A DNA stretch of 31,346 bases from a virus. The notes below the pieces were generated by a model. It was not told the origin of the DNA. It did no database searches and worked only from the letters and a program-made list of their open reading frames with translations. The position numbers and the translations under genes are program-made. Within the stretch, counting starts at the first letter, position 1, and the number at the start of each line of letters is the position of its first letter. The stretch is taken from the IMG/VR virus record IMGVR_UViG_3300033552_000002, positions 64,001 through 95,346 of that record; one strand, written 5' to 3'. This document shows, in pieces, positions 9,124 to 10,276 of this stretch.

Positions 9124-9516
9124 GGGGATGACTGGTTTTGACAGTTTGCACGCTTTTATACAATTCAGCTCAGAGAGATAACTGATTAAAACTAAGGTGA
9201 ATCATTTTAAATGACAAACAAACCGAGAATGCCCAAGTACAAGCTAACATGAATGCGGTAAATAACATCTTAAATGGTGTTGTTGCTTTGTTCTCTACTT
9301 CAGAAGAAGTGGAATTAGCTGTGGCTGCCTAAGCCAAAGAATTAGGTTTTATGATTATATTTTTTATACTGGTTTCCTTATTCCTAAAATAAGGTGGTGG
9401 TAGTCAACTATTTAGTAGGCCCTTTGTCTAACTTAAAGACTTTAAATAAAAGTAAGCTGTAAAAAATTGTGTAATTGAAGTAATCTTGGACCCGAGTTCG
9501 ATTCTCGGCATCTCCA
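9124..9516 (+). ncRNA. ssrA: tmRNA (ssrA), phage-encoded, with a long tag frame
   Basis: tmRNA releases stalled ribosomes by acting first as an alanyl-tRNA and then as a short mRNA that adds a degradation tag. The 5' end GGGGATGACTGGTTTTGACA is the classic tmRNA start. The 3' end has a T-arm, CCGAG-TTCGATT-CTCGG (9492-9508), followed by CATCTCC. GGGGATG (9124-9130) pairs with CATCTCC (9509-9515) as a 7-bp acceptor with one G-U. The discriminator is A and CCA is not encoded. The tag frame ends GAA GTG GAA TTA GCT GTG GCT GCC TAA (stop 9330-9332), giving EVELAVAA, a typical Ala-Ala degron end. The same frame is open back to a TGA at 9198-9200, so the tag may be about 39-43 residues, far longer than usual. 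The resume codon is not certain; GAC at 9213 lies about 90 nt from the 5' end. Confidence 0.93.
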
Positions 9517-9901
9517 CAATATGTACACCCAGCACTTAATAAAGATTTTAGGTTAATTTGCTGATACCTAGACGGATAAAAAGAGTGTCTTTAAAAGCCT
9601 GAAAATGATAGCAAATAATCAAGTAAGGAAAGAAGGTAGTTAAGAAATGTGAGCATTGCAAGGCAATATCAGTGAAGCTACTGGTTGAAGTGGGTAATAT
9701 TACAAAAATGGAAACGTTCTTATTTTTAACGTAATTACAAAGTTGGCACTTTGTACAAAACAAGTAAGATTTTAAATCTTACATAATGTAATTGGAAAAA
9801 CATAATCTCCGTATAAGTGCCCTATAATGTTTTTATTGTTAATTATGATTTGTTGTAAAATCAAAAAAATGTATAGGTTTGACCATTTACCTGTACAACA
9901 T
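9517..9901 (+). other. Noncoding hairpin-rich spacer between tmRNA and tRNA
   Basis: No gene on either strand is convincing. Clear hairpins are ACAAAGT-TGGC-ACTTTGT (about 9737-9754), the near-palindrome GTAAGATTT-T-AAATCTTAC (about 9763-9781) and TGTATAGGT with ACCTGTACA (about 9870-9897), immediately before the tRNA. A structured RNA or the 3' trailer of the tmRNA precursor is possible. Confidence 0.4.
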
Positions 9902-9978
9902 GGAGAGATTAGCTAAAATCTGGTAGAGCAAAAGATGTTAAAATCTTTGGTGTGTGGGTTCAAATCCCACTCTCTCTA
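9902..9978 (+). tRNA. tRNA-like gene, probably tRNA-Asn(GTT), with atypical anticodon loop
   Basis: The acceptor GGAGAGA (9902-9908) pairs with TCTCTCT (9971-9977, one G-U), and the discriminator is A. The D-arm region contains GCT...GGTAGAGC. The T-arm is GTGGG-TTCAAAT-CCCAC. The anticodon stem AAAGA pairs with TCTTT around an 8-nt loop TGTTAAAA, one base more than the normal seven; U33-GTT-AA fits Asn if one A is extra. The acceptor-to-D linker is 3 nt instead of 2. CCA is not encoded. It is either a functional but unusual tRNA, a frameshift-suppressor type, or a decaying copy. Confidence 0.75.
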
Positions 9979-10276
9979 CACAAATTGTCTAGATTCTAAG
10001 AAGTCCATCCCTTAAAAGACTTAAACATAGTTTTTAACTTTGTAGTGTGCTTAATGAGGTCCAACTGATTTGAAATTTTTAGACTTTGGGGGCAGTAAAT
10101 AGTAACAGTAGCTATTTAATTATACTATTCATACTCTGTTGAGTCACTGTAAAAAAGCTGTCCTTTTGAAATTAATAAAAAGCATAACGAGAAACAAAAC
10201 TAAGGAAAAATAGTAAGCAGGTTTTTATGCTTTCTTGCATTACTATTATCCAAAAAAACATTTAAATTAAAACATT
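9979..10276 (+). other. Leader region upstream of the replication operon
   Basis: There is no gene. A hairpin AATAGTAA-GCA (10209-10219) pairs with TGC-A-TTACTATT (10236-10247) just before the ATG at 10277, and AATAGT/ACTATT pairs near 10098 and 10125. This is the likely leader and promoter region of the replication module, but I cannot find a copy of the 23-nt element here, so a different promoter class may be used. Confidence 0.45.

Follow-up and report, generated by a model that had tools for sequence, protein, structure and literature searches.

The tags that trans-translation adds to polypeptides are usually treated as short degrons, and the commonest tag length in a tmRNA database of 2025, which holds 79 phage tmRNAs among 97,179, is 10 amino acids (PMC11915505). 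Why, then, should a phage carry a tmRNA with a tag about four times as long as that of its hosts (39 versus 8–10 residues)? The locus that raises this question lies in a 31,346-nt stretch of DNA, hereafter referred to as the window, which comprises positions 64,001 to 95,346 of the 95-kb virus record IMGVR_UViG_3300033552_000002. A sequence-only reading had recognised there a tmRNA with an exceptionally long tag reading frame, and had suggested that such a tag could offer a longer handle on tagged proteins, yield a regulatory peptide or direct targets to a specific protease. Mycobacteriophages and phage G appear in earlier lists of tmRNAs (PMC4131195); the methylophage Melnitz is described in PMC9004378, as is a survey that finds tmRNA in 402 phage genomes. 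We found no description of the present tag family in the open-access (as distinct from subscription) literature; the database mentioned above may hold some of its members without comment. Judged by sequence comparison, the notable feature of this tag is a conserved internal core, and not its length.

A one-piece tmRNA with an unusual PK1 region

A search with cmscan yields a full-length match to the Rfam tmRNA model RF00023 at 9124–9519 on the plus strand of the window (66.1 bits, E 7e-24), which exceeds the gathering score of 47 bits. The mature gene ends with the discriminator base A73 at 9516, and CCA is not encoded; 9124–9516 (+) is thus delimited from mature 5' end to A73 and, by its match to the model, its aligned relatives and its covarying helices, is a one-piece phage tmRNA. 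In the acceptor stem, GGGGATG (9124–9130) pairs with CATCTCC (9509–9515, with A73 following) in seven of seven positions, including the alanine determinant G3-U70, which is found in 52 of the 53 relatives measured, and the T-arm (CCGAG/TTCGATT/CTCGG, 9492–9508) forms five of five pairs. The tRNA-like domain built from the acceptor stem, T-arm and A73 is intact in the window and in 52/53 members of the family. An RNAalifold analysis of 23 relatives supports the acceptor stem, P2, the T-arm and stem S1 of PK1 with covarying pairs; beyond P2, the aligned relatives have reduced helices that vary. The identification of the tmRNA from its acceptor stem, T-arm and 5' end is therefore borne out, and the end coordinate of 9516 given by the sequence-only reading is exact. 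The tmRNA finders that it had proposed to run disagree, in that the Rfam covariance model detects the gene, whereas ARAGORN reports no tmRNA in the window.

The PK1 region is located upstream of the resume codon, as expected for RF00023. It comprises the stem S1 (CAG/CUG) with a near-invariant loop, AGAGAUAA (9171–9184, +), and a conserved 3' part, AAACTAAGGTGAA (9189–9201, +), the latter being recovered independently in loci chosen by their tag motif only. The loop AGAGAUAA and the 3' sequence AAACUAAGGUGAA are nearly invariant, also in the loci chosen by tag motif, and S1 covaries among the relatives, with GCAC/GUGC in L259, ACCG/CGGU in L262 and GAG/CUC in L253. A second Watson-Crick stem (S2) is evident neither in the window (9171–9201) nor in the relatives, and PK1 possibly adopts a tertiary motif here in place of the usual pseudoknot. 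Its sequence has no exact match across 84,980 bacterial and archaeal species genomes.

The resume codon and the tag reading frame

In the phage relatives, PK1 ends in GGTGAA, which is followed after 10–13 nt by the box TAA[ACT][CT] and, directly thereafter, by a resume codon GGC, GGA or GAC. This arrangement of box and codon is found in at least 97 phage relatives, and the same box precedes the GGC of the GENNYALAA tag in Flavobacteriia host tmRNAs. In the window, PK1 is followed by a spacer of 11 nt, by GAC and by a tag that ends in ELAVAA and TAA. Because the box is homologous to that of the phage relatives and of the Flavobacteriia host tmRNAs, we assign the resume codon to GAC at 9213–9215. 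The tag reading frame, DKQTENAQVQANMNAVNNILNGVVALFSTSEEVELAVAA, accordingly spans 9213–9329 (+) and encodes 39 amino acids, with the stop codon TAA at 9330–9332 and an in-frame TGA upstream at 9198–9200. These positions agree with the earlier proposal of a resume codon near 9213, a tag of about 39 residues and a frame open from the TAA back to the TGA. That proposal had also named two grounds for doubt, a resume codon fewer than 15 codons from the TAA and a long frame lacking conservation. Neither is what we find: the homologous resume box and the conserved upstream codons rule out a short tag, and 80 of 81 relatives selected by PK1, among the matches listed, keep the core described below.

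A shuffled tag of the same length and composition would remain open in 5% of cases for the window and in 6.8% for the family mean, and in none of the 97 relatives among the matches listed is either of the other two frames open across the tag. For the phage Calle_1, the tag is predicted to begin with GNNTNAVNAQIEANMEAV.

A family of long tags

To collect relatives, 2.9 million viral contigs were scanned with two independent patterns, each used by itself: the PK1 sequence and a set of degenerate codons for the tag motif. Both patterns recover mostly the same loci, as 92 of the 124 motif-only matches carry the exact PK1 pattern upstream; about half of the remainder lie behind a close PK1 variant, and the others are chance matches in unrelated genes. 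The viral contigs yielded at least 97 distinct reading frames for the tag. With lengths of 24–49 residues and a median of 35 among the matches listed, they make the 39 residues of the window ordinary within their own family. Searches with blastn additionally found relatives in isolated phages, namely Cellulophaga phi14:2 (Crassvirales), Cellulophaga Calle_1 (Pervagoviridae), phi38:1 and FpV4-like Flavobacterium phages. Plain BLAST is poorly suited to tags this short: tblastn against phages gave nothing at E 10 with the window's own tag, and 29 Flavobacterium phages with a tag of the 35-residue class. The PDB and PHROGs yielded no useful similarity to the tag, and a six-frame search of all loci returned, beyond the tags themselves, only weak chance matches. 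We also considered the tag as a copy of a segment of a phage protein and rejected this idea, since only the tmRNA was retrieved when 18 whole phage records were searched with a profile; likewise, the tag motif does not occur outside the tmRNA in these 18 records.

Comparison of the tags in related phages, as the sequence-only reading had advised, reveals that the long frame is conserved together with an internal core. In the window, this core, QVQANMNAVNNIL, is located at 9234–9272 (+). The pattern Q-x-x-A-N-M-x-x-V with a hydrophobic helix face is present in 80 of the 81 loci chosen by PK1 alone (among the matches listed), and is thus not a product of selecting for the motif; in its fuller form, it extends over 13 residues, Q-[IV]-x-A-N-M-x-x-V-[FHNY]-x-[LI]-[LI]. 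When modeled as a helix, the core is amphipathic, with a mean moment of 0.44 compared to 0.24 for shuffled sequences, and AlphaFold predicts it as helical in the lone 39-residue peptide, with a mean pLDDT of 91 over residues 11–20, which is supportive only, as befits a lone peptide. The core is preceded by 2–14 residues up to its Q and followed by 15–31 residues from its M to the stop, and such variation in the distances to either end is what a linear docking motif connected through linkers to a C-terminal degron would allow.

The two ends of the tag are reminiscent of host tags. At the start, host GENN corresponds to phage G/D-[KN]-N/Q-N/T, and at the end, host Y-A-L-A-A to phage [EV]-[LV]-A-V-A-A, so that the C-terminal ELAVAA of the window (9312–9329, +) is the counterpart of host (Y)ALAA. 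Among the matches listed, 75 of 81 PK1-selected tags end in AA; five of the other six end in VA, and that of Calle_1 in VGV. By sequence, the phage tag therefore looks like a host tag that was split open, with a host-like start, an inserted core, a variable spacer and a host-like hydrophobic end. Four tags (L178, L234, L180 and L191) are mosaics of a start typical of the 35-residue class (GKNTNSVVSQGDNAQ, GNTNNSVVSLEDNAQ) and an end of the TVVHNILNGG or LLGDDTQEE class, a composition that suggests recombination at the core. A further locus (L158, 2430–2793, minus strand) combines the same PK1 and an intact tRNA-like domain with a 49-residue tag that lacks the core (GNIDNDAQEVVDINYTFSTPMMVVHKGERKSVSPSQDLSWGTRQVAIAA), and constitutes a natural core-less variant.

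Selection on the tag peptide

The pairwise pN/pS is 0.53 in the tag frame, which is under purifying selection, and 1.07 and 1.29 in its two alternatives, which are not; the underlying pair counts ignore relatedness, whereas the contrast between frames is independent of it. Within the core, pN/pS is 0.15–0.43. All 96 aligned tags have the Q, A, N and M of the core, and 95 of them have its V, yet the codons of these residues change freely: Gln is encoded by CAA (91) or CAG (5), Ala by GCT (81), GCA (9), GCC (5) or GCG (1), Asn by AAC (60) or AAT (36), and Val by GTA (57), GTT (33) or GTG (5). Accordingly, pN at the invariant Q, A, N and V is at most 0.004, at a pS of 0.16–0.68. This combination of free silent change with almost no change in amino acids argues for strong selection on the peptide. 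The last six codons, by comparison, have a pN/pS of 1.5 among close relatives, which indicates relaxed constraint and a tail that is freer to vary than the core.

A putative docking helix and its alternatives

We think it probable that the locus encodes a hijacked trans-translation RNA, which adds a bipartite tag composed of a conserved amphipathic docking helix and a degron-like C-terminal end. In such a mechanism, the phage tmRNA would be charged with alanine by the host AlaRS, as G3-U70 suggests, and would be brought to stalled ribosomes by host SmpB, as the lack of smpB in the phage record suggests. The ribosome would resume at GAC 9213 and append the 39-residue tag to the stalled chain. 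The core helix could then dock on a single conserved partner, for which a host AAA+ protease or its adaptor is the likeliest candidate and a phage protein a less likely one. The -AVAA end, a putative degron, could feed the tagged chain into a ClpXP-like protease. VAA, MAA, MVA and VGV ends are maybe weaker degrons than LAA. The phage would thereby take over the rescue of ribosomes that stall during infection and decide the fate of the freed polypeptides.

Several other readings have to be weighed against this one. The long tag might be merely a longer degron handle, i.e. an unstructured initiation region for the host protease with a core that has no specific partner. The -AA end, kept in 75 of the 81 PK1-selected tags among the matches listed, and the widely varying tag length and spacing would agree with this, but a plain linker would not hold Q, A, N and M in 96 of 96 tags (V in 95) at a pN near zero amid ample silent change, and we regard it as unlikely. 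Somewhat more doubtful still is a role of the core as a nascent-chain signal, which would slow or pause the ribosome on the tmRNA from within the exit tunnel, or as a regulatory peptide in infection. Strictly conserved short peptides in the nascent chain are typical of arrest peptides, and a tag of 24–49 residues is long enough to fill the tunnel; however, arrest peptides need a fixed spacing to the stall site, whereas 15–31 residues lie between the core Met and the stop, and the tag end has no conserved codon or proline motif. Of the roles proposed for the tag at the outset, that of a handle recognised by a particular partner or protease fits best, and a stalling or regulatory peptide agrees less well with this range.

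We give just as little credence to the idea that the core is kept for the RNA structure of the tmRNA, for instance through a helix that GCUA in the core might form with a UAGC close to the end of the tag, and that the peptide is a by-product. RNAalifold does pair these columns, and 88 of 96 sequences are able to pair at the variable position. Nevertheless, the invariant residues vary at third codon positions and almost never in the amino acid, the residues Q, M and V as well as the hydrophobic positions are outside the 4-bp pairing, and of 15 departures from GCU, no more than about 9 preserve the pair, several of these being related; constraints on RNA pairing and on the peptide could coexist. 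Lastly, phages often acquire tRNA-like genes, and the tmRNA might be a decaying copy of a host gene with an accidentally open frame. While the reduced and variable helices beyond P2 would be in line with decay, the tRNA-like domain, intact and covarying in all but one of 53 relatives, the purifying selection and the wide spread among phages render it highly improbable.

The docking-helix reading has a precedent of sorts in the E. coli SsrA tag, AANDENYALAA, which comprises internal residues that bind the adaptor SspB and a C-terminal ClpX site. The phage tag may follow a similar bipartite logic of internal adaptor residues and C-terminal degron; in the E. coli tag, though, the adaptor binds a short peptide in extended form at the beginning of the tag, and not an inserted amphipathic helix. 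The one-piece tmRNA of the Bacteroidia type (ssrA, RF00023; GENNYALAA) shares with the phage gene the G3-U70 domain, P2, the position of PK1, the TAAAY|GGC box and a hydrophobic -AA tag end before the stop. By contrast, its tags have 8–10 residues and no core, as opposed to 24–49 residues with a conserved, predicted helical core and a spacer, and the PK1 sequence of the phages is different, near-invariant and absent from the cellular genomes searched. The tmRNAs of the mycobacteriophages Bxz1 and Wildcat and of Bacillus phage G (PMC4131195), and the permuted tmRNA of Melnitz (PMC9004378), are likewise phage-borne and presumably work with host SmpB; unlike here, the excerpted text of these sources describes no conserved internal tag core. 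Other long phage tags that lack the Q-x-x-A-N-M core, ADEEYRDLLAEAEQIFNNADAYVPEEALLAA, ADVELSTMTFGDAMAWMESFDYAVAA and GNTNFWSLVNQGVNTPVAEELLAA, are repeated across contigs (L001, L022, L033, L034; L013, L078, L102, L107; L099), and to go by their sequences, conserved tags of great length may have several origins.

The near-absolute constraint on the core suggests that the tagged polypeptides must meet a specific partner. It is conceivable, although we would put it at slightly under an even chance, that a widespread class of phage tmRNAs adds a dedicated docking helix to every rescued chain and redirects the products to a partner of the phage's choosing, as a targeting module within the tag that is conserved across phage families and confined to viruses as far as searched. 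The tag thus offers a testable route to why lytic phages carry tmRNA, and may reveal a new protease adaptor or receptor of tagged proteins in Bacteroidota.

Carrier phages and their hosts

The carriers of this tmRNA family that we checked are crAss-like phages and Pervagoviridae; in the human-gut phages crAss001 and crAss002, neither a match to the tag nor a tmRNA scoring above threshold was found. A helicase-like protein of the window's record (phrog_15558) is closest to that of FpV4 (54.7% identity) and also resembles proteins of Bacteroides phages, including crAss-like ones. Its family is present in 18 of 25 tested records and missing from Calle_1, which implies that the tmRNA type crosses phage families. 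The flanking ORFs, which were examined for a conserved neighbour as partner, fall into clusters that are each specific to a lineage, and the commonest clusters include none that the isolate lineages share. Neither SmpB nor ClpP was found in searches of 18 phage records each, several of them incomplete, so that the phages would have to rely on the SmpB and the proteases of the host.

In sampled Bacteroidia genomes, 29 of 30 ARAGORN calls gave host tags of 8–10 residues with no internal core, such as GENNYALAA; the window's tag, with its 39 residues and its core, falls outside this host type. A search of 395 Bacteroidota genomes for the core pattern found none, with a pattern that requires 40–70 nt after the core and so misses the 35-residue class; this negative is accordingly weak, and the PK1 scan of the 84,980 species genomes carries more weight.

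Current annotation misses or mis-maps these genes, as is apparent from ARAGORN and from the FpV4 (L126) and phi14:2 (L124) records: neither record has a tmRNA feature there, and in that of phi14:2, hypothetical proteins are annotated across the gene. In Calle_1 (L125), the deposited tmRNA feature and the Rfam match are offset by about 52 nt.

Finally, the window contains a tRNA gene at 9902–9979 (+), which scores 43 bits with Rfam. Its anticodon loop is odd in having 6 or 8 bases (AAAGA UGUUAAAA UCUUU), and ARAGORN assigns it an anticodon of two bases. Such a tRNA could cause frameshifts or read stop codons, or it could be degenerate.
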